Origin: Owenia fusiformis
Taxonomy: Eukaryota; Annelida; Polychaeta; Sabellida; Oweniidae
Direction of reading: 5' to 3'
DNA: 64,000 bases
Assembly (NCBI GenBank): GCA_903813345.2
Contig: CAIIXF020000004.1
Location: 16,043,513 to 16,107,512, forward strand
How positions within the stretch are numbered: position 1 is the stretch's first letter; every line of letters starts with the position of its first letter. The notes below the pieces were generated by a model, which was not told where the DNA came from, did no database searches, and saw only the letters and a program-made list of their open reading frames with translations. The position numbers and the translations under genes were made by a program. Of the stretch, positions 17,462 to 55,076 are shown piece by piece.

Positions 17462-17673
17462 CTACATGGCACATATTTTGATCTTTTGTCCATGTGGCCA
17501 ACAGTGCATTCCTACGCCACATGCGAAGTAATACGCCTTTGCCTCGTTTAGCTCCTTCATAACAGGTCCTCTCCGTCTTGCCTTGTCAACAAAATTGCTA
17601 CACGTTTCGAAATCTTCTTTAGTCATTTCGTTTACATTGTGATTATTTGGGAATGAAAATGTTACTGTAGAAC
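17462..17673 (-). CDS. Cupredoxin exon, terminal: last domain, Gln-type copper site
   Basis: Acceptor at 17675-17674, phase 1, running to TAG at 17462. It encodes GSTVTFSFPNNHNV ... FETC ... AYYFACGVGMHCWPHGQKIKI. The predicted type-1 copper ligands are His of HNV, Cys of FACG, His of MHC and, at the axial position, Gln (as in plant stellacyanins) rather than Met. Cys of FETC and Cys after the ligand His would form the phytocyanin-type disulfide. The protein ends three residues after the last beta strand, with no GPI-type hydrophobic tail. Confidence 0.85.
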
Positions 17674-18005
17674 CTGAAATCAACCACATTGTGATCAAGG
17701 CAGTACAGATCGCGAATGACTACTAATCTGAATAAGGTAAAACAGATAAAATACAATGTATGGGAGGTAATTGGACGATGTTACCTGAGCTATTAATGTT
17801 TTATGTCCCCATTTAATATAATTTGGTTGTCTTCATATGTATAGTATATTTGTAATTACGGTTGATAAAAAGTCTCTGTTGAGACAAGCTTCTCAATGCA
17901 ATATGAAATTCAACTACAACACATTTTATTTGTGAACATAAAAGTGTACAGAATCTATCTATTAAAGGTCAAATAAATGTCCTTTGTAATTGTGTTCCTA
18001 CGTAC

Positions 18006-18101
18006 CCTTTCTTACACACATAGGGGCGTATTTCTTTACAAGCCACGGAATGGAAATTATAGGTCCTTCCTTAACCATTTCATCTTTACAGAACTGACAG
18101 T
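18006..18101 (-). CDS. Cupredoxin exon: N-terminal strands of the last domain
   Basis: Acceptor CTTTCAG, donor GTACGT, phase 1 at both ends (96 nt). It encodes a CQFC start, a Trp and APMCVRK, and joins the terminal exon in frame at the GSTVTF strand. It lies just outside the duplicated block, which is why it has no second copy. Confidence 0.8.
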
Positions 18102-18357
18102 CTGAAAGTCAAAACACAAAGTTGGAATTTCAAGCATACTTTTAAAACCAATTTCGGAAAAGATGAGCTGCGCTGAATCTGCGCTTGGCCAAGTTACAAC
18201 TGTTACCAATCGATTTTAAGCTTCGTGTATATTTTTACGTATGATTTAATTGGGGTGCTCTTCTAGGATTGAAAGTAAGAAGGAATCTAGTTAAATTGGT
18301 TAAATCAAAGCTTGACCATCGTCCCATAGAACTATTTAAAACCATATTTAAAAATGT

Positions 18358-19030
18358 TGGTAAAATAAAGGTCACCCAGTCTTAATTCAGTCTTACAGAA
18401 GTTACATGGCATCAACAGACATGCCTGATAAATGGGTGATGTGCTCAATCCATGCTTCACGGTTCTGGATAACTGCTGTAATGCGAATGTTGAAGTTGTT
18501 TACTGCTCAAAAACATTAGATATAGTCAATCCACATCCACATGGAACCTTTACCACGAGGAACCATCTGGAATCCTCGTAAAGCCCACATATGGATTCCA
18601 CGTGAAATCCGCATGAATTTTTAGGCACGTGGAATAGGGAAAGATTTTCCATGTTTATTCCCATGGAATCCTTGCGAAAAATCCCTATTGAAACATGTGA
18701 CAATAATGAGGATCCATGTGGATCAAATTCACTTGCAAAAAAGTGTGGATTCCATGTGGAATATACGTTTATTGCCACATATATCCAAGTGGATTCCACG
18801 TGGATCATATAAAGGATGTTCAACAATTCTTTCCTTCAAATAAAGAAAAATGTTAAAAAACTACATAGCACCCCTGGATATACTGGAACTAGCAGTGGAT
18901 AGCTTCAACATTCGCGTTGAAGCAGTTATTTAGAACTGTAGAGCATAGATTGAGCACATCACCTATTTATCAATCATGTCTGGTGATGCCATGTAACTTC
19001 TGCTAGACTTGCTAGAGTGACCTTTGTGAT
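18358..19030. mobile_element. Foldback element in intron, copy A
   Basis: The outer arms (AAAGGTCAC near 18369 and GTGACCTTTG near 19017) and the long segments around ACAGAAGTTACATGGCATCA (18396) and its inverse (about 18987) form an imperfect palindrome of about 650 bp. The centre is rich in CCATGTGGA/CCACGTGGA words. The same element is present in block B, so it predates the duplication. A separate TTTGGACCACCCTGTATATA mariner-like end follows at about 19112-19133. Confidence 0.7.
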
Positions 19031-19210
19031 ACCCGCAAAAGATTTCGACCTTCCTCTTAGAATATCAGCCCATTAATGCAAGAAATAACTGAGATATAGC
19101 TTGTTGCCAGGGTTCACCTTTTTGGACCACCCTGTATATAACTTTTTTTGAACGATAGATCCCCAGTATATCATGCAAGTGTTTTCATGAATTATTTTTG
19201 CATGTTTTAC

Positions 19211-19867
19211 CTTCGTCGTCATTATCATCATTATCTTCTTCTTCTCCTTCTTCTTCCTTTGTTGAAGTCTCCATAGCTTCAGTAGTTGTCTTGTCGTCAT
19301 CTGTTGTTGTTGTTATTGTTGTAGTAGTTGTTGTTTCGTCGTCATTAGCATCATTTTCTTCCACTTCTTCTTCCTTTGTTGAAGTCTCCATAGCTTCAGT
19401 AGTTGTCTTGTCGTCATCTGTTGTTGTTGTTATTGTGGTAGTAGTTGTTTTGTCGTCGTCATTATCATCATTATCTCCTTCTTCTTCTTCTTCTTCTTCT
19501 TCTTCTTCTTCTTCTTTTGTTGAAGTCTCCATAGCTTCAGTAGTTGTTTTGTCGTCATCTGTTGTTGTTGTTGTTGTTGTTATTGTTGAAATAGTTGTTG
19601 TTTTGTCTTCTTCTTCTTCCTCTTCTTCTTCTTCATCTTCTTCTTCGTTTTCTTCTACTACTATAATTTTAATCTTCATGCCCCCAACGCTACAATGTTT
19701 CCCTACTCCACATACAAAGTAATATGTTCCTTCCTTTTCAAATGTTATCGATTTAGTACCAGCATCATCTTTGCCTGACATTGTGACACCACAATTCATG
19801 TATTCGTCATGATCTAATTGTTCAACATTGTGGTTCCCATCTCCCCAGACGAATGTTACTGTTGAAC
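19211..19867 (-). CDS. Cupredoxin exon with acidic/Thr tail, copy A, Met-type site
   Basis: Acceptor TTTTTAG at 19869-19868, donor GTAAAA after 19211, phase 1 on both sides, 657 nt. About 75 residues complete a phytocyanin-like domain: GNHNV (His ligand), YMNCG (disulfide Cys), EGTYYFVCGVGKHC (Cys and His ligands) and GGMKIKI (axial Met). About 145 residues of low-complexity linker follow, made of poly-Glu, DDD and three repeats of DDDKTTTEAMETSTKEEE. The Glu tracts are TTC-type microsatellites and differ in length from copy B. Confidence 0.88.
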
Positions 19868-19979
19868 CTAAAAATGTCAAAATGTGACAACTTATTTTGA
19901 ACGAATGATCCATACATCAATATGCTACAATATCTTGTTATATGTGACATAAAAAGCTAAATGGAGTTATGTGTTACAG

Positions 19980-21043: not shown

Positions 21044-21211
21044 GATAAATATGTATATCTTATAGAAATAGCAGTAGAAATATTCGCCCATCCGGTCTTG
21101 TGTTATAGATTTACTGAAATTGTTGCATAACAATTTATGTTTTATGATATAGACGGTTCGGTATGGATTAATTGTATTAGTATATAGGAATTGTTGGACA
21201 CATCAACATAC

Positions 21212-21298
21212 CTTCTTTAACACATATGGATTCGTATTCTTCATTGCCCGCATTCCAATTCCAATCTATCGTTTTTCCATCCAGCACCTCATTGCAAG
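21212..21298 (-). CDS. Cupredoxin exon: N-terminal strands, copy A
   Basis: Acceptor at 21300-21299, donor GTATGTTG, phase 1 on both sides, 87 nt (29 codons). It encodes CNEVLDGKTIDWNWN ... ESICVKE, the first strands of a phytocyanin-like fold, and joins the GSTVTF exon at 19867. Its sequence is essentially identical to the copy B exon at 41814-41900. Confidence 0.85.
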
Positions 21299-21594
21299 CT
21301 ACATAGAGGGAGTAGAAGGGATTTTTTAAAATTTCTCCAAATTCTTATTTTATTCCAGAAGAATATTTAGAATTTTAACATTAGATGTATTCATCCAGAA
21401 TATTGAAAGAAGGGGACGCCCTCATTTACATTCTTTTAAAATAAGCTGAATTGCAAATCACTTTCGAGAAAATTAGTATTGTTTTTTCCAACGTGGAATG
21501 AAAATTAATATGTGTAGGAGGGAGTATAGTAGCTTTGCCGGTATTATTAGGAGGCCCCGACAGGGGGCCTCCTATAGATTTTATAGATATTATT

Positions 21595-21905
21595 TATTAT
21601 TCTTTATTATTAGACTCCAGATGAAAATCTGGAGTCTATTGCTTTTGCCAGTTTTCTTTATTATTAGACTCCAGATGAAAATCTGGAGTCTATTGCTTTT
21701 GCCAGTTTTCTTCTTATTATTAGACTCCAGATGAAATCTGGAGTCTATTGTTTTCGTCAGTTTTCTTATTCTTATTAGACTCCAGATGAAATCTGGAGTC
21801 TATTGTTTTCGTCAGTTTTCTTATTATTCTTTTTCTGCTTATTATTATTAGACTCCAGATGAAATCTGGAGTCTATTGTTTTCGTCAGTTTTCTTATTAT
21901 TCTTT
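21595..21905. repeat. Five tandem short hairpins, AGACTCCAGAT...ATCTGGAGTCT
   Basis: Each unit of 55-70 bp is a perfect or near-perfect 25-27 bp palindrome followed by ATTG(C/T)TTT(T/C)G(C/T)CAG and a T-rich spacer. Single or double copies recur in the array at about 23784, 27178, 30079 and 30130. Confidence 0.85.
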
Positions 21906-24900
21906 TTATTCTTATTCTTATTCTAAACAAGTTTTCTCAATAACCGTAAGGTTTTTAGTAAAGTCAGTCATTTGGTCAATTTAGGTTCAGAATCTAGTTC
22001 CTCGGAAATTGGGTCAAATTTTTATCTAGGTCAAAGGTCAAGAACTAGGTCAAATCCAGTACTTTGTCACTTTTTTTGATTTTCTCAGTCGTCCTTCAAT
22101 ATTTTCGATCCGTTTTTTTTTCATTGTGTTCCTCATAAAAAGGTAGAAAACCTAGGGTCGATTTAGTTTTTTGATATCTCAAACCGATTTCGAGATATCA
22201 GTGTCCGAAAACGAGGTCCAAAAAAAAGTTCTCCGAATCAAATGTCAAGGATATAAGTCTTATAGGAAATTTCCTCAGGATTCCGAATCTGAAAACCAAA
22301 TTCGAATCAAACTTCCGGTTCGGAAGTTATGGCGTTTTGAAAGCTCAAAAATCGATAAATTTGGTGCCCATGTTAAGTCAATGGGAAAAAATATTTTTTT
22401 GAAGTGAAAAATACGAAATATAGACTGAGTTCAGCTAAATATAATGAAAGCTTTTAAAAGAATGGGACCTCAAAAGCCATCTAGCTTCAAAATTTGGACA
22501 CCAAAATGCCTAGGTCAAAATCTAGGTCAAATTCAAAGTTTTTCCTTATTTTTGCTATTCTGACACTACAGATTAATTATATTCTTCGAAATTTTGTATG
22601 CATGTAGCCAAGAGTGTGGTTATAGTGTTAGCCTTTTGCCGTCAGAAGGTATTTTGCCCCACTTTTGAGATATGGTGTCCGAAAAGTAGGTCAAAATAAA
22701 AAATTCTCCAAATTTAACGTGTGAGTTACGAACTGAGTATAGAATTTTCTCAGGAATCCGAATCTGCAAACCAAATTTCGATTCGACTTCGAGTTCGGAA
22801 GTTATGACATTTTGAAAGCTCAAAAATCGCTAAATTTAGTGCCCCATGTTATGTTAATGGGAAAAAAGATTTTTTTGAAGTGTAAAATACGAGATATAGA
22901 CTAAGTACATCTTAAAATAATGAAAGCCTATGAAAGAAGGGAACCTTGAAGGCTACCTAACTTCAAAATTTGGACACCAAAATCCCTAGGTCAAAATCTA
23001 GGTCAAATTCATAGTTTATCCTTATTTTTGCGATTCTGACACTACACTTTAGTTATATTCCTCGAAATTGTGTATACATGTAGCCAAGAGTGTGCTTATA
23101 GCGTTAGCCTTTTGCCGTCAGAAAGTATTTTGACCCACTTTTGAGATACGGTGTCCGAAAAGTAGGTCAAAATAAAAAGTTCTCCAAATTTAACGTTTGA
23201 GTTATGAATTAAGAATAGAATTTTCTCAGAAAACCAAATCTGCTAACCAAATTTCGATTCGACTTCCGGTTCCGAAGTTATGTCCGAAAGGTAGGTCAAA
23301 ATTTAACGTATGAGTTATGAATTAGGGGTAGAATTTTGTCGGGAATCCGAATCTGCAAATCAAATTTCGATCCGACTTCCGGTTCGGAAGTTATGGTGTT
23401 TTGAAATTTCAAGAAAAATCGATCTGATGGTATCCTGATAGAAAGTCAAGAGTAGAGAAGAAAATATTGAAAAATGCATCCATCCTTCCTTTCTGATCCT
23501 ATCTTATCCTTCCTATCTACCCTTGCTTCGTATCCTCTCCTTCCTACCCTTCCTATTATATCCCTTCCTTCCTATTCTATTCTATCCTTCTTTCCTATTC
23601 TATCCTATCGTTCCTTCCTTTTCTATCGTATCCTTCCTTCCTTTTTCATCCATCCATCTTTTTCTGGATGACTTAGCTTATTTTGGATGACTTGGCTTAT
23701 TCTGGATAACTCGGCTAAAAAAAGTCTAGATCTGGAGTCTGAAATTGAACTCGTTCAATTTCCAAAATCTAGTTATTATTATTAGACTCCAGATGAAATC
23801 TGGAGTCTATTGTTTTCGTCAGTTTTCTTATTCTTCTTCTTCTTATTATTATTATTCTAACCCAGTTTTCTCAATGACCATTAGGCTCTCAGTAAAGTCA
23901 GTCATTTGGTCAATTTAGGTTCAGAATCTAGTTCCTCGGAAATTGGGTCAAATTTTTATCTAGGTCAAAGGTCAAGAACTAGGTCAAATCCAGTACTTTG
24001 CCACTTTTTTCGATTTTCTCGGTCGTCCTTCAATATTTTCGATCCGGGTTTTTTTCATTGTGTTCCTTATAAAAAAGTAGGAAACCTAGGGTCGATTTAG
24101 TTTTTTAATATCTCAAACCGATTTCGAGATATCAGTGTCCGCAAACAAGGTCCAAAAAAAAGTTCTCCGAATCAAAGGTCCAGGATATTAGTCATATAGG
24201 AAATTTTCTCAGGATTCCGAATCTGAAAACCAAATTTAGATCGGACTTCCGGTTCAGAAGTTATGGCGTTTTGAAAGCTCAAAAATCGCTTAATTTGGTG
24301 CCCATGTTAAGTCAATGGGAAAAAAGATTTTTTTGAAGTAAAAAATATGAAATATAGACTGAGTTTAGCTAAATATAATGAAAGCTTTTAAAAGAATGGG
24401 ACCTCAAAAGCCATCTAGCTTCAAAATTTGGACACCAAAATGCCTAGGTCAAAATCTAGGTCAAATTCAAAGTTTTTCCTTATTTTTGCGATTCTGACAC
24501 TACAGATTAATTATATTCTTCGAAATTTTGTATACATGTAGCCAAGAGTACGCTAATAGTGTTAGCCTTTTGCCGTCAGAAAGTATTTTGACCCACTTTT
24601 GAGATATGGTGTCTGAAAAGTAGGTCAAAATAAAAAGTTCTCCAAATTGAATATATGAGTTATGAATTAAGGGTAGAATTCTGTCAGGAATCCGAATCTG
24701 CAAACCAAATTTCGATCCAACTTCCGGTTCGGAAGTTATGGCGTGTCCGAAAAGTAGGTCAAAATAAAAAATCTCCAAATTTAACGTATGAGTTATTAAT
24801 TAGGGGTAGAATTTTGTCAGGAATCCGAATCTGCAAACCAAATTTCGATCCGACTTCCAGTTCGGAAGTGATAGCGTTTTGAAATTTCGAGAAAAATCGA

Positions 24901-27900
24901 TCTGATGGTATCCTGATAGAAAGTCAAGAGTAGAGAAGAAAATATTGAAAAATTCATCCATCCTTCCTATCTCATCCTACCCTATCCTTCCTATCTATCC
25001 TTCCTTCATATCTTTTCCTTTCTATCCTATCCTATCCTTTCTTCCTATTCTATTCTATCCTATCCTTCTTTCTTATTCTATCCTATCGTTCTTTCCTATT
25101 CTATCCTATCCTACCTTCCTATTTTATTTATCCATCTCTTTCTAGATGACTCAGCTTATTCTGGATGACTCGGCTTATTCTGGATGACTCGGCTAAAAAA
25201 AGTCTAGATCTGGAGTCTGAAATTGAACTTCGTTCAATTTCCAAAATCTAGTTATTATTCTAAGCAAGTTTTCTCAATAACCGTAAGGTTTTCAGTAAAA
25301 TCAGTCATTTGGTCAATTTAGGTCCAGAATCTAGTTCCTTGGAAATTGGGTCAAATTTTTATCTAGGTCAAAAGTCAAGAACTAGGTCAAATCCAGTACT
25401 TTGTCACTTTTTTCGATTTTCTCGGTCGTCCTTCAATATTTTCGATCCGAGTTTTTTTCATTGTGTTCCTTATAAAAAAGTAGGAAACCTAGGATCGATT
25501 TAGTTTTTTGATATCTCAAACCGATTTCGAGATATCAGTGTCCGAAAACGAGGTCCAAAAAAAAGTTCTCCGAATCAAATGTCCAGGATATTAATCTTAT
25601 AGGAAATTTTCTCAGGATTCCGAATCTGAAAACGAAATTTCGATCCGACTTCCGGTTCGGAAGTTATGGCGTTTTGAAAACTCAAAAATCGCTAAATTTG
25701 GTGCCCATGTTAAGTCAATGGGAAAAAATATTTTTTTGAAGTGAAAAATACGGAATAAAGACTGAGTTCAGCTTCATATAATCAAAGCCTTTAAAAGAAG
25801 GGGACCTCAAAAGCCATCTAGCTTTAAAATTTGTACACCGAAATGCCTAGGTCAAAATCTAGGTCAAATTCATAGGTTTTCCTTATTTTTGCGATTCTGA
25901 CACTACACTTTAATTATATTCTTCGAAATTGTGTATACATGTAGCCAAGAATATGCTAATAGTGTTAGCCTTTTGCCGTCAGAAAGTATTTTGACCCACT
26001 TTTGAGATATGGTGTCCGAAAAGTAGGTCAAAATAAAAAGTTCTCCAAATTTAACGTTTGAGTTATGAATTAAGAATAGAATCTTCTCAGAAATCCGAAT
26101 CTGCAAACCAAATTTTAATTCGACTTCCGGTTCCGAAGTTATGGCGTGTCCGAAAAGTAGCTCAAAATAAAAATTCGCCAAATTTAACGTATGAGTTATG
26201 AATTAGGAGTAGAATTTTGTCAGGAATCCGAATCTGCAAATCAAATTTCAATCCGACTTCCGGTTCGGAAGTTATGGCGTGTCCGAAAAGTAGATCAAAA
26301 TAAAAAATCTCCAAATTTAACGTATGAGTTATGAATTAGGTATAGAATTTTCTCAGGAATCCGGATCTGCAAACCAAATTTCGATCCGACTTCCGGTTCG
26401 GAAGTTATGGCATGTCAGAAAAGTAGGTCAAAATAAAAAATCTCCAAATTTAACGTATGAGTTATGAATTAGGGGTAGAATTTTGTCAGGAATCCGGAAC
26501 TGCAAACCAAATTTCGATCCAACTACCGGTTCGGAAGTTATGGCGTGTCCGAAAAGTAGGTCAAAATAAAAAATCTCCAAATTTAACGTATGAGTTATGA
26601 ATTAGAGGTAGAATTCGGTAAGGAATCCGGATCTGCAAACCAAATTTCGATCCGACTTCCGGTTCGGAAGTTATGGCGTGTCCGAAAAGTAGGTCAAAAT
26701 AAAAAATCTCCAAATTTAACGTATGTGTTATGAATTAGGGGTAGAATTTTGTCAGGAATCCGAATCTGCAAACCAAGTTATAGCGTTTTGAAATTTCGAG
26801 AAAAATCGATCTGATGGTATCCTGATAGAAAGTCAAGAGTAGAGAAGAAAATATTGAAAAATTCATCCATCCTTCCTATCTCATCCTATCCTATCCTTCC
26901 TATCTATCCTTTCTTCATATCTTTTCCTTCCTATCCTTCCTATCCTATCCTATCCTTTCTTCCTATTCTATTCTATCCTATCCTATCCTTCTTTCTTATT
27001 CTATCCTATCGTTCTTTCCTATTCTATCCTATCCTACCTTCCTTTTTTATTTATCCATCTCTTTCTAGATGACTCAGCTTATTCTGGATGACTCGGCTTA
27101 TTCTGGATGACTCGGCTAAAAAAAGTCTAGATCTGGAGTCTGAAATTGAACTTCGTTCAATTTTCAAAATCTAGTTATTAGACTCCAGATTGAAAATCTG
27201 GAGTCTATTGTTTTCGTCAGTTTTCTTATTATTATTCTTATTCTTATTATTCTAAGCAAGTTTTCTCAATAACCATAAGGTCTTCAGTAAAGTCAATCAT
27301 TTGGTCAATTTAGGTTCAGTATCTAGTTCCTCGGAAATTGGGTCAAATTTTTATCTAGGTCAAAGGTCAAGAACTAGGTCAAATCCAGTACTTTGTCACT
27401 TTTTTCGATTTTCTCGGTCGTTCTTCAATATTTTCGATCCGGGTTTTTTTCATTGTGTTCCTTATAAAAAAGTAGGAAATCTAGGGTCGATTTAGTTTTT
27501 TGATATCTCAAACCGATTTCGAGATATCAGTGTCCGAAAACGAGGTCCAAAAAAAAGTACTCCGAATCAAATGTCCAGGATATTCGTCTTATAGGAAATT
27601 CTCTCAGGATTCCGAATCTGAAAACGAAATTTCGATCCGATTTCCGATTCGGAAGTTATGGCGTTTTGAAAACTCAAAAATCGCTAAATTTGGTGCCCAT
27701 GTTAAGTCAATGGGAAAAAATATTTTTTTGAAGTGAAAAATACGGAATATAGACTGAGTTCAGCTTCATATAATCAAAGCCTTTAAAAGAAGGGGACCTC
27801 AAAAGCCATCTTGCTTCAAAATTTGGACACCGAAATGCCTAGGTCAAAATCTAGGTCAAATTCATAGGTTTTCCTTATTTTTTCGATTCTGACACTACAC

Positions 27901-30900
27901 TTTAATTATATTCTTCGAAATTGTGTATACATGTAGCCAAGAATATGCTAATAGTGTTAGCCTTTTGCCGTCAGAAAGTATTTTGACCCACTTTTGAGAT
28001 ATGGTGTCCGAAAAGTAGGTCAAAATAAAAAGTTCTCCAAATTTAATATCTGAGTTATGAATTAAGAGTAGAATTCTGTCAGGAATCCGAATCTGCAAAC
28101 CAAATTTCGATCCGACTTCCGGTTCGGAAGTTATGGCGTGTCCAAAAAGTAGGTCAAAATAAAAAATCTCCAAATTTAACGTATGAGTTATGAATTTGGG
28201 GTAGAATTTTGTCAGGAATCCGAATCTGCAAATCAAATTTCGATCCGACTTCCGGTTTGGAAGTTATGGCGTTTTGAAATTTCGAGAAAAATCGATCTGA
28301 TGGTATCCTGATAGAAAGTCAAGAGTAGAGAAGAAAATATTGAAAAATTCATCCATCCTTCCTATCTCATACTATCCTATCCTTCCTATCTACCCTTCCT
28401 TCATATCTTTTCCTTCCTATCCTTCCTATCCTATCCTTTCTTCCTATTCTATTCTATCCTATCCTTCTTTCTTATTCTATCCTATCGTTCTTTCCTATTC
28501 TATCCTATCCTACCTTCCTATTTTATTTATCCATCTCTTTCTAGATGACTCAGCTTATTCTGGATGACTCGGCTTATTCTGGATGACTCGGCTAAAAAAA
28601 GTCTAGATCTGGAGTCTGAAATTGAACTTCGTTCAATTTCCAAAATCTAGTTATTATTCTTATTATTATTCTAAACCAGTTTTCTCAATAACCATAAGGT
28701 TTTCAGTAAAGTCAGTCATTTGGTCAATTTAGGTCCAGAATCTAGTTCCTCGGAAATTGGGTCAAATTTTTATCTAGGTCAAAGGTCAAGAACTAGGTCA
28801 AATCCAGTACTTTGTCACTTTTTTCGATTTTCTCGGTCGTCCTTCAATATTTTCGATCCGGGTTTTTTTCATTGTGTTCCTTATAAAAAAGTAGGAAACC
28901 TAGGATCGATTTAGTTTTTTGATATCTCAAACCGATTTCGAGATATCAGTGTCCGAAAACGAGGTCCAAAAAAAGTTCTCCGAATCAAATGTCCAGGATA
29001 TTAGTCTTATAGGAAACTTTCTCAGAATTCCGAATCTGAAAACGAAATTTGGATCTGACTTCCGGTTCGGAAGTTATGGCGTTTTGAAAACTCAAAAATC
29101 GCTAAATTTGGTGCCCATGTTAAGTCAATGGGAAAAAATATTTTTTTGAAGTGAAAAATACGGAATATAGACTGAGTTCAGCTTCATATAATCAAAGCCT
29201 TTAAAAGAAGGGGACCTCAAAAGCCATCTAGCTTCACAATTTGGACACCGAAATGCCTAGGTCAAAATCTAGGTCAAATTCATAGGTTTTCCTTATTTTT
29301 TCGATTCTGACACTACACTTTAATTATATTCTTCGAAATTGTGTATACATGTAGCCAAGAATATGCTTATAGTGTTAGCCTTTTGCCGCCAGAAAGTATT
29401 TTGACCCACTTTTGAGATATGGTGTCCTAAAAGTAGGTCAAAATAAAAAGTTCTCCAAATTTGACGTTTGAGTTATGAATTAAGTATAGAATTTTCTCAG
29501 GAATCCGAATCTGCAAACCAAATTTCGATCCGACTTCCAGTTTGGAAGTTATGGCGTGTCCGAAAAGTAGGTCAAAATAAAAAATCTCCAAATTTAACGT
29601 ATGAGTTATGAATTAGGGGTAGAATTTTGTCAGGAATCCGAATCTGCAAACCAAATTTCTATCCGACTTCCGGTTCGGAAGTGATAGCGTTTTGAAATTT
29701 CAAGAAAAATCGATCTGATGGTATCCTGATAGAAAGTCAAGAGTAGAGAAGAAAATATTGAAAAATTCATCCATCCTTCCTATCTCATCCTACCCTATCC
29801 TTCCTATCTATCCTTCCTTCATATCTTTTCCTTCCTATCCTTCCTATCCTATCCTATCCTTTCTTCCTATTCTATTCTATCCTATCCTTCTTTCTTATTC
29901 TATCCTATCGTTCTTTCCTATTCTATCCTATCCTACCTTCCTATTTTATTTATCCATCTCTCTAGATGACTCAGCTTATTCTGGATGACTCGGCTTATTC
30001 TGGATGACTCGGCTAAAAAAAGTCTAGATCTGGAGTCTGAAATTGAACTTCGTTCAATTTCCAAAATCTAGTTATTATTAGACTCCAGATGAAATCTGGA
30101 GTCTATTGTTTTCGTCAGTTTTCTTATTATTAGACTCCAGATGAAATCTGGAGTCTATTGTTTTCGTCAGTTTTCTTATTCTTCTTCTTCTTCTTTTTCT
30201 AAACCAGTTTTCTCAATAACCATTAGGTCTTCAGTAAAGTCAATCATTTGGTCAATTTAGGTTCAGTATCTAGTTCCTCGGAAATTGGGTCAAATTTTTA
30301 TCTAGGTCAAAGGTCAAGAACTAGGTCAAATCCAGTACTTTGTCACTTTTTTCGATTTTCTCGGTCGTCCTTCAATATTTTTGATCCGGTTTTTTTTCAT
30401 TGTGTTCCTCATAAAAAAGTAGGAAATCTAGAGTCGATTTAGTTTTTTGATATCTCAAACCAATTTCGAGATATCAGTGTCCGAAAACGAGGTCCAAAAA
30501 AAAGTTCTCCGAATCAAATGTCTAGGATATTAGTCTTATAGCATATTTTCTCAGGATTCCGAATCTGAAAACCAAATTCGGATCGGACTTCCGGTTCGGA
30601 AGTTATGGCGTTTTGAAAGCTCAAAAATCTCTAAATTTGGTGCCCATGTAAAGTCAATGGGAAAAAAGATTTTTTTGAAGTGAAAAATACGAAATATAGA
30701 CTGAGTTCAGCTAAATATAATGAAAGCTTTTAAAAGAAAGGGACATCAAAAGCCATCTAGCTTCAAAATTTGGACACCAAAATGCCTAGGTCAAAATCTA
30801 GGTCAAATTCAAAGTTTTTCCTTATTTTTGCTATTCTGACACTACAGATTGATGATATTCTTCGAAATTTTGTATACATGTAGCCAAGAGTGCTCTAATA

Positions 30901-33900
30901 GTGTTAGCCTTTTGCCGTCAGAAAGTATTTTGCCCCACTTTTGAGATATGGTGTCCGAAAAGTAGGTCAAAATAAAAAATTCTCCAAATTTAACGTGTGA
31001 GTTATGAACTAAGTATAGAATTTTCTCAGGAATCCTAATCTGCAAACCAAATTTCGATCCGACTTCCAGTTCGGAAGTTATGGCGTTTTGAAAGCTCAAA
31101 AATCGCTAAATTTGGTGCCCCATGTTATGTCAATGGGAAAAAAGATTTTTTTGAAGTGTAAAATACGAGATATAGACTAAGTACAGCTTAAAATAATGAA
31201 AGCCTATGAAAGAAGGGAACCTCGAAGGCTACCTAACTTCAAAATTTGGACACCAAAATCCCTAGGTCAAAATCTAGGTCAAATTCATAGTTTATCTTTA
31301 TTTTTGCGATTCTGACACTACAGTTTAATTATATTCCTTGAAATTGTGTATACATGTAGCCAAGAGTGTGGTTATAGCGTTAGCCTTTTGCCGTCAGAAA
31401 GTATTTTGACCCACTTTTGAGATACGGTGTCCGAAAAGTAGGTCAAAATAAAAAGTTCTCCAAATGTAACGTTTGAGTTATGAATTAAGTATAGAATTTT
31501 CTCAGAAATCCGAATCTGTAAACCAAATTTCGATTCGACTTCCGGTTCTGAAGTTATGGCGTGTCCAAAAAGTAGGTCAAAATAAAAATTCGCCAAATTT
31601 AACGTAGGAGTTATGAATTAGGGGTAGAATTTTGTAAGGAATCCGAATCTGCAAATCAAATTTCGATCCGACTTCCGGTTCGGAAGTTATGGCGTTTTGA
31701 AATTTCAAGAAAAATCAATCTGATGGTATCCTGATAGAAAGTCAAGAGTAGAGAAGAAAATATTGAAAAATGCATCCACCCTTCCTTTCTGATCCTATCC
31801 TATCCTTCCTATCTACCCTTGCTTCGTATCCTCTCCTTCCTATCCTTCCTATTCTATCCCTTCTTCCTATTCTATTCCATCCTTCTTTCCTATTCTATCC
31901 TATCGTTCCTTCCTATTCTATCCTATCCTTCCTTCATTTTTCATCCATCCATCCATCCATCTTTTGCTGGATGACTTAGCTTATTTTGGATGACTGGGCT
32001 TATTCTTGATGACTCGGCTAAAAAAAGTCTAGATCTGGAGTCTGAAATTGAACTCGTTCAATTTCCAAAATCTAGTTATTATTCTTCTTCTTATTATTCT
32101 ATCCCAGTTTTCTCAATAACCATAAGGTCTTCAGTAAAGTCAATCATTTGGTCAATTTAGGTTCAGTATCTAGTTCTCTGGAAATTGGGTCAAATTTTTA
32201 TCTAGGTCAAAGGTCAAGATCTAGGTCAAATCCAGTACTTTGTCACTTTTTTCGATTTTCTCGGTCATCCTTCAATATTTTTGATCCGGGTTTTTTTCAT
32301 TGTGTTCCTTATAAAAAAGTAGGAAACCTAGGTTCGATTTAGTTTTTTGATATCTCAAACCGATTTCGAGATATCAGTGTCCGAAAACGAGGTCCAAAAA
32401 AAAGTTCTCCGAATCAAATGTCCAGGATATTAGTCTTATAGGAAATTTTCTCAGAATTCCGAATCTGAAAACGAAATTTCGATCCGACTTCCAGTTCGGA
32501 AGTTATGGCGTTTTGAAAACTCAAAAATCGCTAAATTTGGTGCCCATGTTAAGTCAATGGGAAAAAATATTTTTTTGAAGTGAAAAATACGGAATAAAGA
32601 CTGAGTTCAGCTTCATATAATCAAAGCCTTTAAAAGAAGGAGACCTCAAAAGCCATCTAGCTTCAAAATTTGGACACCGAAATGCCTAGGCCAAAATCTA
32701 GGTCAAATTCATAGGTTTTCCTTATTTTTTCGATTTTGACACTACACTTTAATTATATTCTTCGAAATTGTGTATACATGTAGCCAAGAATATGCTAATA
32801 GTGTTAGCCTTTTGCCGTCAGAAAGTATTTTGACCCACTTTTGAGATATGGTGTCCGAAAAGTAGGTCAAAATAAAAAGTTCTCCAAATTGAATAGATGA
32901 GTTATGAATTAAAGGTAGAATTCTGTCAGGAATCCGAATCTGCAAACCAAATGTCGATCCGACTTCCGGTTCGGAAGTTATGGCGTGTCCGAAAACTAGG
33001 TCAAAATCAAAAATCTCCAAATTTAACGTATGAGTTATGAATTAGGGGTAGAATTTTGTCAGGAATCCGAATCTGCAAATCAAATTTCGATCCGACTACC
33101 GGTTCGGAAGTGATAGCGTTTTGAAATTTCGAAAAAATCGATCTGATGGTATCCTGATAGAAAGTCAAGAGTAGAGAAGAAAATATTGAAAAATTCATCC
33201 ATCCTTCCTATCTCATCCTACCCTTTCCTTCCTATCTATCCTTCCTTCATATCTTTTCCTTCCTATCCTTCCTATCCTATCCTATCCTTTCTTCCTATTC
33301 TATTCTATCCTATCCTTCTTTCTTATTCTATCCTATCATTCTTTCCTATTCTATCCTATCCTACCTTCCTATTTTATTTATCCATCTCTTTCTAGATGAC
33401 TCAGCTTATTCTGGATGACTCGGCTTATTCTGGATGACTCGGCTAAAAAAAGTCTAGATCTGGAGTCTGAAATTGAACTTCGTTCAATTTCCAAAATCTA
33501 GTTATTATTTTTTTTCTTATTCTTCCTCCTTACAAGATTTCTCACCAACTAGAAGAACTTACTTTAAGCTGCTTACATGATCAACTAGGGAATGTATCTG
33601 GGATTATGGGAAATTAGGTCAAATTTTTATCTAGGTCAAAGGTCAAGAACTAGGTCAAATCCAGTACTTTGTCACTTTTTCCCATTATCTCGGTCGTCCT
33701 TCAATATTTTTGATCCTGGTTTTTTTCATTGTGTTCCTCATAAAAAAGTAGAAAACCTAGGGTCGATTTAGTTTTTTGGTATCTCAAACCGATTTCGTAA
33801 TCAGTGTCCGAAAACGAGGTCCAAAAAAAATGTCACCAATGTCCAGGATATCAGTCTTATAGGGAATTTTCTCAGGATTCCGAATCTGAAAACCAAATTT

Positions 33901-38660: not shown

Positions 38661-38716
38661 AAGATTTGACCTTTGGCTGACCTTTAAATGTTCAAAAAAG
38701 CCTACGGGGCCTCCGT

Positions 38717-38878: not shown

Positions 38879-39053
38879 AATCGTTTTCTGGTTTCATCAT
38901 CGGAGGCACTGATGTAGTCATGGTCACAATGGGTGTAGTAGTATCGTCATCAGGGTTCATTTCTTCTTGTCTTTCGATAACTTGAATTTCTACCTTCTGT
39001 TCACCAATCATACAATGAACGCCTACACCACACGCAAAGTAAAATGTCTTAAC
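38879..39053 (-). pseudogene. Orphan cupredoxin half-exon (copy A of exon 42289-42463)
   Basis: Intact reading frame with a good acceptor (TTTTTAG) and donor (GTAAGT). It encodes KTFYFACGVGVHCMIGEQKV and a Thr/Asp linker, that is the C-terminal half of cupredoxin 1 with axial Gln. It starts in phase 0. The preceding exon in this duplicated arrangement (40268) ends in phase 1, and its normal partner (the 137-nt exon at 43158) was not duplicated. It can therefore only be skipped, which makes it a stranded exon. Confidence 0.75.
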
Positions 39054-39263
39054 CTAAAAAGATAACCCCCAAATAAAATGATATAACTGGGTACATTTTA
39101 TTTGGGGGTTATCTTTTTAGGTTAAGACATTTTACTTTGCGTGTGGTGTAGGCGTTCATTGTATGATTGGTGAACAGAAGGTAGAAATTCAAGTTATCGA
39201 AAGACAAGAAGAAATGAACCCTGATGACGATACTACTACACCCATTGTGACCATGACTACATC
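38911..39263. repeat. Perfect palindrome at the A/B duplication junction, 170-bp arms
   Basis: 38911-39080 and 39094-39263 are exact reverse complements as read here, separated by 13 bp (ATATAACTGGGTA). The arms contain most of the cupredoxin exon at 38879-39053, so an inverted, unusable copy sits on the plus strand. Immediately after the right arm, sequence homologous to 18171 onward (block B) begins. Confidence 0.92.
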
Positions 39264-39459
39264 ATCGCTGAATCTGCGCTTGGCCAAGTTACAACTGTTA
39301 CCAATCGATTTTAAGCTTCGTGTATATTTTTACGTATGATTTAATTGGTGTGCTCTTCTAGGATTGAAAGTAAGAAGGAATCTAGTTAAATTGGTTAAAT
39401 CAAAGCTTGACCATCGTCCCATAGAACTATTTAAAACCATATTTAAAAATGTTGGTAAA

Positions 39460-40090
39460 ATAAAGGTCACCCAGTCTTAATTCAGTCTTACAGAAGTTAC
39501 ATGGCATCAACAGACATGCCTGATAAATGGGTGATGTGCTCAATCCATGCTTCACGGTTCTGGATAACTGCTGTAATGCGAATGTTGAAGTTGTTTACTG
39601 CTCAAAAACATTAGATATAGTCAATCCACATCCACATGGAACCTTTACCACGAGGAACCATCTGGAATCCTCGTAATGCCCACATATGGAATAGGGAAAG
39701 ATTTTCCATGTTTATTCCCATGGAATCCTTGCGAAAAATCCCTATTGAAACATGTGACAATAATGAGGATCCATGTGGATCAAATTCACTTGCAAAAAAA
39801 GTGTGGATTCCATGTGGAATATACGTTTATTGCCACATATATCCAAGTTGATTCCACGTGGATCATATAAAGGATGTTCAACAATTCTTTCCTTCAAATA
39901 AAGAAAAATGTTAAAGAACTACATAGCACCCCTGGATATACTGGAACTAGCAGTGGATAGCTTCAACATTCGCGTTGAAGCAGTTATTTAGAACTGTAGA
40001 GCATAGATTGAGCACATCACCTATTTATCAATCATGTCTGGTGATGCCATGTAACTTCTGCTAGACTTGCTTGAGTGACCTTTGTGATAC
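39460..40090. mobile_element. Foldback element in intron, copy B
   Basis: Same element as 18358-19030, slightly shorter in the centre where a CCACGTGGA-word block is missing. Confidence 0.65.
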
Positions 40091-40267
40091 CCGCAAAAGA
40101 TTTCGACCTTCCTCTTAGAATATCAGCCCATTAATGCAAGAAATAACTGAGATATAGCTAGTTGCCAGGGTTCACCTTTTTGGACCACCCTGTATATACA
40201 TTTCTTTGAACGATAGATCCCAGTATATCATGCAAGTGTTTTCATGAATTATTTTTGCATGTTTTAC

Positions 40268-40930
40268 CTTCGTCGTCATTATCATCATTATCTTCTTCTT
40301 CTTCTTCTTCCTTTGTTGAAGTCTCCATAGCTTCAGTAGTTGTCTTGTCGTCATCTGTTGTTGTTGTTGTTGTTATTGTTGTAGTAGTTGTTGTTTCGTC
40401 GTCATTAGCATCATTTTCTTCCACTTCTTCTTCCTTTGTTGAAGTCTCCATAGCTTCAGTAGTTGTCTTGTCGTCATCTGTTGTTGTTGTTATTGTGGTA
40501 GTAGTTGTTTTGTCGTCGTCATTATCATCATTATCTTCTTCTTCTTCTTCTTCCTTTGTTGAAGTCTCCATAGCTTCAGTAGTTGTCTTGTCGTCATCTG
40601 TTGTTGTTGTTATTGTTGAAATAGTTGTTGTTTTGTCTTCTTCTTCTTCTTCTTCTTCTTCTTCTTCTTCTTCTTCTTCTTCTTCTTCTTCTTCTTCATC
40701 TTCTTCTTCGTCTTCTTCTACTACTATAATTTTAATCTTCATGCCCCCAACGCTACAATGTTTCCCTACTCCACATACGAAGTAATATGTTCCTTCCTTT
40801 TCAAATGTTATCGATTTAGTACCAGCATCATCTTTGCCTGACATTGTGACACCACAATTCATGTATTCGTCATGATCTAATTGTTCAACATTGTGATTCC
40901 CATCTCCCCAGACGAATGTTACTGTTGAAC
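40268..40930 (-). CDS. Cupredoxin exon with acidic/Thr tail, copy B, Met-type site
   Basis: Acceptor GTTAG at 40932-40931, donor GTAAAA, phase 1 on both sides, 663 nt. Same domain as the copy A exon: GNHNV, YMNCG, FVCGVGKHC and GGMKIKI, giving His, Cys, His and Met copper ligands plus a disulfide Cys pair. The first Glu tract is longer than in copy A (an uninterrupted run of about 20 Glu from TTC repeats), while the others are shorter. The plus-strand poly-Ser frame over this exon is a shadow. Confidence 0.88.
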
Positions 40931-41575: not shown

Positions 41576-41813
41576 ATAACTAATGGCTAGGAACTAAATG
41601 AATGCAATGTCGTTAATATCCTTCGATATCTAGGATCAAATTGTAGATAAATATGTGCATCTTAGAGAAATAGCAGTAGAAATATTCGCCTATCCGGTCT
41701 TGTGTTATAGATTTACTGAAATTGATGCATAACCATTTATGTTTTATGATATAGACGGTTCGGTATGGATTAATTGTATTAGTATATAGGAATTGTTGGA
41801 CACATCAACATAC

Positions 41814-41900
41814 CTTCTTTAACACATATGGATTCGTATTCTTCATTGCCCGCATTCCAATTCCAATCTATCGTTTTTCCATCCAGCACCTCATTGCAAG
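41814..41900 (-). CDS. Cupredoxin exon: N-terminal strands, copy B
   Basis: Acceptor at 41902-41901, donor GTATGTTG, 87 nt, phase 1 on both sides. It encodes CNEVLDGKTIDWNWN ... ESICVKE. Joined to exon 42463-42289, the split codon gives a Ser before the first Cys; joined to 40930 it continues into GSTVTF. Confidence 0.85.
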
Positions 41901-42288
41901 CTATATGATATAATACATAGAGGGAGTAGATGGGATCTTTTAAAATTTCCCCAAATTCTTATTTTATTCCAGAAGAATCTTTATTTTTAACGTTAGATGC
42001 ATTCATCAAGAATATTGAAAGAAGAGAATTTACATTCTTTTAAAATAAGATGAATTGCAAATCACTTTCGAGAAAATTAGAATTGTTTTTTCAAACGTGG
42101 AAGGAAAATGAAAGTGTGAAGGAGGTAGTATTGTAGCTTTGACCAATTCTGTATTATCTTTAATTTATCTTGATTTTCAATTAATATACAATTATCCTTG
42201 ATGGTGAGGAACCTTTGCGCCCAGCAATACCACATAATATAGGTCAATGGATCATTAGAGGTATAGATCACCATACGATACTACTTAC

Positions 42289-42463
42289 AATCGTTTTCTG
42301 GTTTCATCGTCGAAGGCACTGATGTAGACATGGTCACAATGGGTGTAGTAGTTTCGTCATCAGGGTTCATTTCTTCTTGTCGTTCGATGACTTGAATTTC
42401 TACCTTCTGTTCACCAATCATACAATGAACGCCTACACCACACGCAAAGTAAAATGTCTTACA
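42289..42463 (-). CDS. Cupredoxin 1 exon, C-terminal half, Gln-type site, with Thr linker
   Basis: Acceptor ATTTTAG, donor GTAAGT. It enters in phase 0 and exits in phase 1 (175 nt). It encodes KTFYFACGVGVHCMIGEQKV (ligands Cys, His and axial Gln), then an Asp/Glu-Thr linker (DDETTTPIVTMSTS). A second AG six bases downstream keeps the frame, so a two-residue splice variant is possible. Confidence 0.85.
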
Positions 42464-43157
42464 CTAAAATTAAGAAAAATAATCCCTAAATAAAATGTAA
42501 ATACTTTTCAAATCAAAATATTTTCATTATCATTCAACTAAGTTCCCAGTGCATTACATGTTTTTATAGGCCTACCTGGCTTTTAATATAAAATATCTTA
42601 AGATGATTCGTTTTTAGAATATCTTGAACATAGTATCAAATTCAAGGACAGTTAAGTTATGGCATTTACAAAAAAATGATATCCCTTAAAAACATATCAT
42701 AATAAAACCCTACAGAATATAGTTCAAAGTAGGGATACAGAGTTATTGGTTATTTGGTTCCCAGTATAATAAGCCTTTTCTCCTTTTCTGGCCCGTCGCA
42801 GCGCCATTTAGTGTTTGACAAATGAATCAAGGTTTATTCTCGATAGGGTAAATACTAATCTATCAGGAAATATTTACAAGTTTGGTTAGAAACAGAATTT
42901 TGAGCTTTACAGTGGTAGCTCTCTCCAGATTCAGGTATCTCAAAAAACGGCGTATTATTATCTTGTAATGGGAAGCTAGACAAGACTCGTGGCTCCAATG
43001 AACACTAGGCACCATTCCGCTGAGCTAGAACTGTGCCCGTGAATATATTATGAAATGAAACGTTATAATGGTCCTAAATGGGATTTTTAACTGCAATCTT
43101 GACCCTACAGTCTCGACAAGTACATATACAATGCAATTCAATACTAAATTTTCTTAC

Positions 43158-43294
43158 CTGGTCCAATGTGTATTCTGCCATCTTTGTTTCATCAGATTCG
43201 ACGTTACCACCAATTTCACAATTGTCAAATGCTTTCTTATTCTTCAAACCCATCACATTGTGATTACCTTCCCATTCAAATCGTATGACTGTTC
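43158..43294 (-). CDS. Cupredoxin 1 exon, middle: His ligand
   Basis: Acceptor CCGTAG at 43296-43295, donor GTAAGA. It enters in phase 1 and exits in phase 0 (137 nt). It encodes GTVIRFEWEGNHNVMGL (His ligand in HNV), FDNCE (disulfide Cys) and a charged loop ending YTLDQ. Only domain 1 is split here; the other domains carry this region and the Cys-His segment on a single exon. Confidence 0.82.
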
Positions 43295-44749: not shown

Positions 44750-44836
44750 CTTTACATACACATATGGGTTCATATGGTTGGTATCGCCATTGTATTAAAA
44801 CAGTCTCATTACATAGTGGCGTCATTAAATAGCACG
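44750..44836 (-). CDS. Cupredoxin 1 exon: N-terminal strands
   Basis: Acceptor TGCTTTAG, donor GTATGT, 87 nt, phase 1 on both sides, the same length as the equivalent exon of domain 2. It encodes CYLMTPLCNETVLIQW and PICVCKG. The CNE(T/V)VL, W and ICV positions align with the domain 2 exon. Confidence 0.8.
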
Positions 44837-45057: not shown

Positions 45058-45322
45058 GGTCTTTTTGTTTTGTTTCCTCTGATGTTGTGGTTACCGCCAT
45101 TGGTTCAGTGGTTGTATCCATCTCATTAATACATCCATCAAAAGCTTCAATGAGTTGCCTTAGCTCATCTTTCAACCTTCCCATAGCTCCAGTCAGGCCT
45201 TTAAGAACTGTTGATATTTTTTTACAACTCCTTAAGATTTTATTTTTCAAAAGTTTTTTCAAAGTGTTTGCATATTTCCTGATGTCTTTGTCTTTTGATC
45301 GCAATACAGGCTTTAGTTCATC
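45058..45322 (-). CDS. Helical-region exon plus Thr linker
   Basis: Acceptor TTTGCAG, donor GTATGT. It enters in phase 0 and exits in phase 1 (265 nt). Lys/Arg-rich amphipathic helices (KYANTLKKLLKNK, GAMGRLKDELRQLIEAFDGC) end in a Thr-rich linker (MDTTTEPMAVTTTSEETKQK) that leads into the first copper domain. No known family recognised. Confidence 0.78.
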
Positions 45323-45473: not shown

Positions 45474-45631
45474 GCAAGCCTTTTTTATCAGCTTAACTGC
45501 ATCTGTCATTGCGGTGTTCCTATCTTCAATAGTATTCGAGTTAACAATCATTGTTAGAGTAGATTCAACCATTGAAAGAGCTGTAGTAGGTCCAAATAGG
45601 TTATCGTATAAGGGGTCTCCCATCAGTTTAT
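45474..45631 (-). CDS. Helical-region exon
   Basis: Acceptor ATTTTAG, donor GTAAGC. It enters in phase 1 and exits in phase 0 (158 nt). It encodes DKLMGDPLYDNLFGPTTAL, SMVESTLTMIV and AVKLIKKAC. The splice phase agrees with both neighbours. Function unknown. Confidence 0.72.
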
Positions 45632-49072: not shown

Positions 49073-49241
49073 CCTGTAGACATTTCATAGCTTTCGAAAG
49101 TTGGTTAGTCGAGGCCTTTTTCTTTTTCATTTGTCTTACTTCCGCAACTGTTAATTTCTGAATACGCTTTAATTCGGCCCTCGCATCAGCAACAATTCTT
49201 TTTGCATCAGGGCATTCTTCAAGAGGGTCTGTTAATCCGTT
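49073..49241 (-). CDS. Helical-region exon
   Basis: Acceptor AATTTTCAG, donor GTAAGA. It enters in phase 0 and exits in phase 1 (169 nt). It encodes NGLTDPLEECPDAKRIV, ADARAELKRIQKLTVAEV and a Lys-rich stretch ending KAMKCLQ. Helical, with two Cys. Function unknown. Confidence 0.78.
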
Positions 49242-50957: not shown

Positions 50958-51070
50958 TTTCATGAAGATATCCAACTGCTTTATGGCTGCTCGCTCATTC
51001 GCTTGATCTTCAGCAGTTTCCAGTCTTTCAAGCAGAGACTTCAACTCTTCAAGCGTTTCTCCGATCCCGT
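50958..51070 (-). CDS. Helical-region exon after the signal peptide
   Basis: Acceptor ACCACCAG, donor GTAAGC. It enters in phase 1 and exits in phase 0 (113 nt). It encodes GIGETLEELKSLLERLETAE and ERAAIKQLDIFMK, a strongly amphipathic helix. The codon joined with the upstream exon reads Asp. Confidence 0.75.
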
Positions 51071-52934: not shown

Positions 52935-54038
52935 ATCTAGGACAATCTGTTCAGTGGTCCGAAAGCAAATCTATAGTACTCGTTTCCGAATTTTGTTGTT
53001 CATTGTATAATCTTTTATTGATTAAACTCGGTATACTGACTATTAAAGCAATGACAAAGAAGAATACTTCGATGGTGTCATTGTTTTATTTAGTGTGCGA
53101 GTGTAAAAACAAAATTGCGTAATTAGTTTGATTTAGAATTTTCGGGTCACGCAAATAGCTACGCGAAATGCATAGTGGGAAAATATTGACCAATCAAATT
53201 TTGTCCTTTTTGAGTGCTTTTTCAGTACATATTTGCGAACGTTCTGATTCAAAGAGCGAAGCGCGAAAGGGAGAATTACCTGGCATGAAACAATTTGGTA
53301 ATAATGCTTCTATAACATTCATCTTAAAACCAAGTATTTAGTAGAGAGATGGACAATTTCTAGTGTTCGAATATTAGGTGATGTTTAATTGCACTCCCGC
53401 GTTACAGACTTCAATAAATGGTTATATACTATCCAAAAATTGGTTCTATCAACGAAGGATTGGGTTTCAGCCAATTACCATTTTACTGCAAGCAGTATTA
53501 TGCAAAGCTTGTGGGTCGAAACCTTGAAGTATTATAATTAACTGAAATGACCTTCCAGTGACAATGGAAGAGTTTAGATATTGGATCGTATTAATTGTAA
53601 TCGACAATTCTAGACAATTGAACAATAAAGCGTAATTTATTGCACATTATGACTACTCGCTGTGGGAATAGTACGTTGTATTAATTAATCATAATAGAAC
53701 AAATGAAGTTCAAAAGACATACCATCCACTATAGTTGTTTGATAGTCGCCGCTTTATTTATTATTAATCAAATGCATTGATAAGTTTCATTTTAAGCGCC
53801 TATTAAATTCAATCCCGAAAGCTCAAATTCAAAATAAGCCATATTATATTCTTGATTCATTCAGTTTTCTCAATTAAATTTATTACATAACTGTTTTTAA
53901 AGTTAAACAGTTCGAAAGCTTTTCGGCATTTAATTACGGTTGTCAACTACCGAAACCATACTGAACACATTACATTACAATATATGTTAAAGAATGAATA
54001 ATGAATTCATACAAGATATGACATTCATTTAAGCTTAC

Positions 54039-54080
54039 CCGAAAGTGTGGATCCAACGAGACAAAGCACAATTGCGCCAA
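54039..54080 (-). CDS. Signal-peptide core exon of the cupredoxin gene
   Basis: Acceptor AAATTTCAG, donor GTAAGC, phase 1 on both sides, 42 nt. It encodes GAIVLCLVGSTLS, the hydrophobic core and cleavage region of a secretory signal. It is short but has a strong acceptor tract and matches phases on both sides. Confidence 0.75.
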
Positions 54081-54184
54081 CTGAAATTTGATTAAAACAT
54101 ATTTTGACATACACAATACAAGCCAATTCATATAAGGAGCTAACATACATGACCTCAGAAATGAACAAATATTATAACTCCGAG

Positions 54185-54330
54185 TTATAATTTCTACGGC
54201 GACCCTGCAGCCTGTAAAGGAGGATACACCGTACGGAGGCCGCAAGGCGAGCGTAGTTTTCCTACGCTCGCCGCAGAAATACACTGATTTAATTGATCTG
54301 CGGTCGACGCACGCCCTCCGTACGACAAAT
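54185..54330. repeat. Imperfect GC-rich hairpin
   Basis: CCGTACGGAGGCCGCA (about 54230) faces its inverse GCACGCCCTCCGTACG (about 54310), and CGAGCGTAG faces CTACGCTCG in the centre. Probably a small foldback remnant in the intron. Confidence 0.6.
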
Positions 54331-54755
54331 GTGACTGGGGTGTTAGGTTTATATTGAGTATGGGCTTGTTAAATATTTTTCAGAAAGAAAATGTTTATTT
54401 TTGATTGAATAACATAAAGCAGATCAAATGCCGTCCTAAATGAAAGGGCAGCATTAGACTCGGTTATTCAGGTGCCAAATCATCACACTAGGGCGTTTAA
54501 ATTGCTAAATACAAGTAAGTTAACATAATCAATTGATTTTGTTACAAAAAACAAGAATTGAATGTTATTGCTCACAATACTACAATTTATCGTATGATCT
54601 GTAAAATGAAGCCCTCTGATTGGTCAGTTCTTGTGCTGTACCAATCTGTATTGCTACTGAGGTTGTCCCCGTTGATCATCTCCGTTGCAATACAGAAAAT
54701 ATTGGTACAGAGGGAACAATCTCAGTAGCAATACAGAGGATCACACGATAAAAAC

Positions 54756-54893
54756 GTTATTGAATGATTTAAAGTGCAATACAGGATATATTCTGTCTCG
54801 ATATTCTGTATTGGCACTCGACTTCGTCTCGTCCCAATACAAAATTTCTCGAACAGAATATATCCTGTATTGCACTTCAAATCATTCAATAAC
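54756..54893. repeat. Hairpin with ~58-bp arms
   Basis: GTTATTGAATGATTTAAAGT with CAATACAGGATATATTCTGT is inverted as ACAGAATATATCCTGTATTG with CATTCAATAAC. The loop is around CACTCGACTTCGTCTCGTC. A further inverted pair of GTATTGCTACTGAG words lies just upstream (54650-54740). Confidence 0.8.
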
Positions 54894-55054
54894 TTATAAC
54901 CAGTCTATACATGTATCTTTCATTTGTCATTTCAAAGGGCAATTAATTTAGTTTCTACACGAGTGATGCCTTCATAGATCAAAATAGAATTCCCTGTTTG
55001 GTCAAGTTCTCATAATCTATATTTCAGATTCTTTATGAAAATATATCTACTTAC

Positions 55055-55076
55055 CGAAAAATCTCCCGCTTTCCAT
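55055..55076 (-). CDS. Start exon of the cupredoxin gene
   Basis: ATG at 55076, seven codons (MESGRFF) plus one base, donor GTAAGT. It splices in phase 1 to the 54080 exon, giving a classic signal peptide with a charged n-region followed by FFVGAIVLCLVG. A TTTTTTCTACAG acceptor lies five bases upstream of the ATG, so a further non-coding 5' exon is expected. A candidate ends at about 55886 before GTATGTTAC. Confidence 0.72.

Follow-up and report, generated by a model that had tools for sequence, protein, structure and literature searches.

Whether an annelid encodes a chain of copper-binding domains of the phytocyanin type, a family labelled plant-specific in plant papers, is the question raised by a 64,000-nucleotide stretch of the Owenia fusiformis genome (assembly GCA_903813345.2, contig CAIIXF020000004.1, positions 16,043,513 to 16,107,512). 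This whole stretch, C4:16043513-16107512 in our contig numbering, is hereafter called the window. Its minus strand probably encodes an extracellular protein in which four phytocyanin-type cupredoxin domains, with acidic and Thr-rich linkers, stand behind a helical N-terminal region.

Phytocyanin-type domains and their copper ligands

The preliminary description of the locus had listed an HNV motif, a mid-domain Cys, the stretch (Y/F)YF(A/V)CGVGxHC and a terminal G(x)(Q/M)K as the marks of each domain. A six-frame search of the window recovered these motifs from 17462 to 43294 of the minus strand (at 17.5, 19.7, 39.0, 40.8, 42.4, and 43.3 kb), the terminal motif reading G-x-(M/Q)K or E-Q-K. It also found one inverted motif copy, at 39.1 kb of the plus strand. 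Splice-compatible minus-strand exons could be assembled into four complete phytocyanin-type cupredoxin domains, designated A, C, C', and D. The type-1 ligand set (His, Cys, His, Met/Gln) is present in all four, with Met as the axial ligand in domains C and C' and Gln in domains A and D. The spacing Cys-x4-His-x5-Met/Gln, described previously as one residue longer than in plants, holds in all seven ligand-intact domains (the four domains of the window and three from paralogues); the plant spacing Cys-x4-His-x4-Met/Gln was not found in them, the solved plant sequences showing a one-residue gap before the Met/Gln in the alignment. Both Cys columns of the phytocyanin disulfide, namely the mid-domain Cys and the Cys after the second His, are invariant in the nine aligned sequences (domains A, C, and D of the window and six paralogue sequences).

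Profile searches agreed with the assignment to the phytocyanin/stellacyanin family made in the preliminary description, which had also proposed such a search. The full domains A, C, and D score 22.8, 39.3, and 28.1 bits, respectively, against PF02298, all above the curated Pfam cut-off of 20.8 bits, and the ligand part of C' is identical to that of C. Two of the three raw ligand-exon translations also pass PF02298 (E-values of 5e-10 and 1.5e-6); no match was obtained for the remaining translation, that of the domain A middle exon continued past its donor. When a profile of the family was compared with 177,635 distinct solved sequences, only five matches were obtained at E<=1, all of them plant phytocyanins, with stellacyanin at 7e-14. 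The single full domain C retrieved the same five plant phytocyanins first (E 2e-9 to 0.005), followed by an unrelated elongation factor (E 0.08) and by pseudoazurins from 0.25 onward. Judged from their amino acid sequences, the domains of the window are phytocyanin/stellacyanin-type cupredoxins.

With the plant phytocyanins (stellacyanin 1jer, mavicyanin 1ws7, umecyanin 1x9r, plantacyanin 1f56, and cucumber basic protein 2cbp) the window domains share PF02298, the His of HNV, the mid-domain Cys, the CxxxxHC stretch, and an axial Met or Gln. The window protein differs from them by the extra residue before the axial ligand, by an additional Cys pair in the N-terminal half exon, and by its predicted architecture of four domains, a helical N-terminal region and acidic Thr-rich linkers, encoded in an animal genome. 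Ephrins resemble it as animal extracellular domains of cupredoxin fold, and some paralogues described below likewise have no copper ligands, whereas in the window gene the ligands are intact; no Pfam ephrin match at E<=1 was obtained for the five domains scanned (A, C, D, and one domain each from contigs C11 and C10). Multicopper oxidases such as ceruloplasmin and laccase also have several cupredoxin domains per chain, but each window domain has its own type-1 set, and the same five domains gave no Cu-oxidase match in Pfam at E<=1.

Gene model and the predicted protein

The reading frame from 55076 down to 17462 on the minus strand comprises 14 exons and encodes 958 residues without an internal stop. 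It is joined by 13 GT-AG junctions, all of them phase compatible, in place of the 15 junctions counted earlier, and both of its previously given ends stand: 55076 is the first letter of an ATG, and 17462 is the final base of the stop codon of domain D. Since the splice sites were chosen by hand, by eye, the agreement in GT-AG sites and phases is weaker support than it appears, and phase compatibility alone amounts to moderate evidence.

Four helical exons, h2 to h5, lie upstream of the copper domains. A doubtful candidate first exon, h1 (55055-55076, MESGRFF, phase-1 donor), has neither a signal peptide nor a counterpart in a paralogue. Exon h2 (50958-51070) is open, bounded by AG and GT, and phase compatible, and is followed by the Cys-containing h3 (49073-49241), h4 (45474-45580) and h5 (45058-45322), the last with a Thr-rich end. 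A paralogue on contig C2 has homologues of h4 at 26932766 (E 5e-4, 35%) and of h5 at 26935396 (E 2.7e-10, 42%; placed at 26935393 in the full exon series), followed on the same strand by an N-terminal half exon at 26935881, a middle exon at 26938236, truncated ligand-exon copies at 26938550 and 26938621, a second N-terminal half exon at 26940168, a second middle exon at 26941245, and a full ligand exon at 26942290. This shared succession of h4, h5, and domain exons supports the linkage of the helical region to the copper domains. No homologue of h2 or h3 was seen in the stretches of the contig C2 paralogue that were compared. The helical region had been called novel in the preliminary description, and indeed none of its 12 Pfam matches at E<=1 reaches its own cut-off; the best of four matches among solved sequences at E<=1 (0.003) is a helical-bundle construct, which we took as noise. 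Frames resembling retroelement reverse transcriptases, recognised by eye, lie upstream of the contig C2 copy of h4 (about contig C2 26929585-26931800, L007).

Each of the four domains begins with an N-terminal half exon that is in phase 1 at both ends, has a length of 87 bases (A, C, and C') or 96 bases (D), and ends in C-V-x-x-G with a phase-1 donor. In domain A, this half exon (44750-44836, with homologues on contig C2) precedes a middle exon (43158-43294) that carries the HNV His ligand and the mid Cys, ends in a phase-0 donor, and shows ratios of nonsynonymous to synonymous substitution (dN/dS) of 0.20-0.27 against three contig C2 copies. The last exon of domain A (42289-42463) supplies the Cys, His, and Gln ligands (FACGVGVHCMIGEQ) and is supported by the motif, the splice model, and PF02298. 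The other three domains have a single ligand exon each. Domain C consists of a half exon at 41814-41900 and an exon at 40268-40930 that carries the His, Cys, His, and Met ligands as well as an acidic, Thr-rich tail; domain C' has the same composition, with a half exon identical to that of C (21212-21298) and a ligand exon with tail at 19211-19867. Domain D is encoded by a half exon at 18006-18101 and by an exon at 17462-17673 with the His, Cys, His, and Gln ligands and the stop codon, an AATAAA being present at 17381. The phase-1 exon pairs proposed earlier are therefore found in C, C', and D, but not in domain A: it is built of three exons, and a phase-0 intron inside it separates the mid Cys from the ligand Cys. 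At 40268-40712 and 19211-19649 of the minus strand the copper domains are followed by acidic, Thr-rich tandem repeats with a unit of about 40 residues; the length of these stretches differs from one copy to the other.

A further exon, B' (38879-39053, minus strand), duplicates the last exon of domain A and has a phase-0 acceptor. Spliced after domain C, whose donor is phase 1, it would give GGT TAA and terminate, so that B' cannot be placed in series with the other domains and could only be exchanged for the last exon of A. It may replace that exon in an isoform without C, or may be unused.

What the DNA itself shows is the family of the domains, their ligand residues and cysteines, the phases of the exons, and an exon order that partly recurs in a paralogue; the following outline of the protein is a prediction. 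Each domain would fold as a cupredoxin barrel and hold one type-1 copper, liganded by the HNV His, by the Cys and the His within CGVGxHC, and axially by Met (C and C') or Gln (A and D), and the mid Cys would pair with the Cys of HC in the phytocyanin disulfide. The protein would be secreted like its single-domain relatives, its helical head would anchor or oligomerise the chain, and the linkers between the copper domains would be flexible. In a secreted matrix, such a chain could serve as a multi-copper one-electron carrier or as a copper holder. By analogy with plantacyanin and stellacyanin, the potential of the Met sites of C and C' would lie above that of the Gln sites of A and D.

Several observations weigh against an extracellular four-copper protein of this kind. 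Domain C also passes PF00127 (plastocyanin/azurin), at 26.5 bits with a cut-off of 21.2, albeit with a poorer E-value than for PF02298. The structure predicted for the ligand exon of C without the N-terminal half, computed from three aligned rows (C, C', and D), two of them identical, is uninformative (predicted local distance difference test score of 49). We know of no characterised type-1 site with an x5 axial spacing. Several paralogues have lost copper ligands. If left unspliced, domains C and C' could each terminate at a stop that follows immediately on the tail (EGKTCKNNS), which would allow for two genes or for early-ending isoforms. Finally, a scan of 51-64 kb gave a few hydrophobic candidates but no convincing signal-peptide exon for the window gene; since h1 provides neither a signal peptide nor paralogue support, the secretion claimed in the preliminary description rests for this gene on relatives that have signal peptides. 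The chief doubts concern the position of the true first exon and the presence of C' and D in the same transcript as A and C.

Duplication, repeat array, and the number of genes

The tandem-duplicated unit consists of the last exon of domain A and both exons of domain C. Its copies align at 42221-42497 with 38811-39080 (91%), at 42145-42178 with 38778-38811, and at 41646-42141 with 21044-21537 (91%). The second copy of this cassette is split by an array (21839-37061) of a repeat of about 1.4 kb with inner periods of 133 and 476 bases; the repeat family occurs on many contigs, with at least 133 matches found when the best 40 of 3670 candidates were scored. Domains C and C' differ by 0-2.4% over the half exon, ligand exon, tail, intron, and 3' flank, compared with 8.9% in the 5' flank.

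Such near-identity is what two haplotypes of one locus assembled end to end would produce, in which case the C/C' pair would be an artefact. We consider this quite unlikely, since the outer duplicated parts have diverged by about 9% and are arranged in tandem on either side of the array; whatever holds for C and C', domains A and D are unaffected. The contrast between nearly identical C and C' and the outer parts with their roughly 9% divergence fits an older duplication and suggests later gene conversion between C and C', and an assembly artefact is the weaker alternative. Duplication of phase-1 cassettes is the best explanation for the growth in domain number. An additional rearrangement is a palindrome formed by most of B' (38910-39080) and its inverted copy on the plus strand (39094-39264), with arms of 171 bases that match at 100% and are separated by 13 bases.

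The same tandem duplication could have given rise to two genes, an upstream one with the helical region, A, and C, and a downstream one with C' and D, parted by the repeat array. Consistent with such a division, the array between C and C' is built of a genome-wide repeat, both C-type exons soon reach a stop past the donor if left unspliced, and an AATAAA occurs within 530 bases of each of these stops, against a background of 1.8 AATAAA or ATTAAA per 800 bases. However, the phase-1 half exons at the start of C' and D require an exon upstream of them, and no signal-peptide exon candidate passed a scan of 21300-40240, although none is convincing for the whole window gene either. The two parts of the duplicated unit also retain the same orientation on either side of the array, as expected from the growth of an intron. 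Two genes are accordingly a possible arrangement but a somewhat unlikely one, and a single four-domain gene is preferred.

Paralogues with and without the copper site

The family was searched in the 498-Mb assembly (525 contigs). A genome scan with PF02298 yielded seven matches, all above the cut-off, and protein searches added more. In a rough count by gene, the family has no fewer than eight loci, spread over six contigs: the window gene, two loci each on contigs C11 and C2, and one each on contigs C10, C3, and C6. This number is a lower bound because the searches score only the best candidates. The assembly also holds three matches above the cut-off to the haemoglobin-linker family PF16915, which is not known outside annelids, whereas a search for COX1 (PF00115) gave none.

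An old transfer of the domains from a plant or an alga would account for the nearest solved relatives being plant proteins. It is improbable given the introns, the number of loci and contigs, and the strong divergence among the loci, together with features of the animal family: the added Cys pair in the N-terminal half exon, the x5 spacing, and the fusion to helical regions. Recent contamination is very unlikely.

The contig C11 pair appears to consist of single-domain copies, with ligand exons 97% identical that may splice to further exons. One copy shows a clear signal peptide and, with it, a strong phase-1 donor; the other has a signal-peptide-like stretch, 59% identical to its counterpart, that did not pass the donor scan. 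The genes on contigs C3 and C6 combine a signal-peptide-like start and a coiled-coil region with one domain that lacks the full ligand set. Paralogues of this build lie at L004 3589-4743 and L006 8157-6364. Related coiled coils occur on contig C10 at 3.29 and 3.33 Mb (L015 and L014), with no copper domain detected in the following 6-7 kb. Truncated ligand-exon copies on contig C2 (26908169, 26938550, and 26938621; L012 and L005), near or in place of full copies, are perhaps alternative exons or relics.

The full ligand set is retained in 7 of 11 domains, namely A, C, C', D, both contig C11 copies, and the second contig C2 domain; the count covers full-length ligand parts and leaves aside the contig C2 domain with the middle exon at 26938236, which has truncated last exons, and the orphan exon B'. 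In the contig C10 domain the Cys is replaced by Ser and the second His by Asp, and there is an insertion after the first His. The contig C3 domain has Asp for the Cys and has lost the axial residue, both His being retained, and the contig C6 domain has lost the Cys and both His. The upstream contig C2 copy has lost the second His in its sole full-length last exon. Copper is thus not essential to the family.

Of 13 comparisons, among them one that combines two of the others, 12 gave a dN/dS ratio (Nei-Gojobori) below 1. The ratio equals 0.07 for the contig C11 ligand exons, 0.29 for the contig C2 half exons, 0.20-0.52 for the middle exons, and 0.23-0.48 for the last exons. The exception is the 30-codon contig C11 half exon (1.25, with one synonymous change), which gives 0.19 when pooled with the ligand exon.

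Retention of the domain without copper in the contig C10, C3, and C6 paralogues, and the loss of one His in a contig C2 copy, could mean that the domains are structural or binding modules like ephrins and that the copper site is a relic. We judge this unlikely, as all four ligands persist in most of the fully read domains and in every domain of the window, and as the dN/dS values are mostly well below 1. A copper-binding chain from which some relatives have lost the site is favoured over a relic.

Cupredoxins with copper ligands are known in or near the animal line as monodomain proteins, namely in sponges, ctenophores, and unicellular holozoans; PF02298 was among the models used to find them (PMC6485061). 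Another paper mentions a choanoflagellate protein with PF02298 (PMC6993872). Cupredoxin domains are also mentioned in other animal proteins, from corals, in a sponge oxidase and in the context of ascidian oxidases, though not the present family (PMC9395347, PMC6824150, PMC9854524, PMC9524095, PMC8826395). Among the open-licence papers listed, no titles or abstract beginnings described an annelid phytocyanin-type domain. A published statement holds that bilaterians lost their functional monodomain cupredoxins early in their evolution, which intact and degenerate copper sites within one bilaterian family contradict. The chances appear evenly balanced that bilaterians retained copper-binding monodomain-type cupredoxins and that at least one annelid-like lineage kept a phytocyanin-type family, built from it an extracellular chain with four coppers, and gave up the copper site in several of its members. 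If so, the loss of the copper site within one genome would replay the step by which ephrins are proposed to have arisen and would make it testable in one animal, the family would form a natural series for studying the change from copper protein to binding protein, and the four-site extracellular chain would be an unusual arrangement of type-1 copper.

Motif scans were also made of prokaryotic and viral sequences; as they need short exact motifs, distant relatives would escape them. Of 16 prokaryotic stretches fitting the pattern, only one passed tblastn, and that was a coincidental match, lacking HC, in a protein of another kind; the 28 viral pattern matches included no relative.

Two neighbouring features were noted elsewhere in the window, both on the minus strand. 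Two open frames with hydrophobic stretches at 60193-61124, with no Pfam match at E<=0.01, possibly belong to another secreted protein gene. An open frame at 3795-4805 encodes a rhodopsin-type receptor (PF00001, E 9.5e-33).

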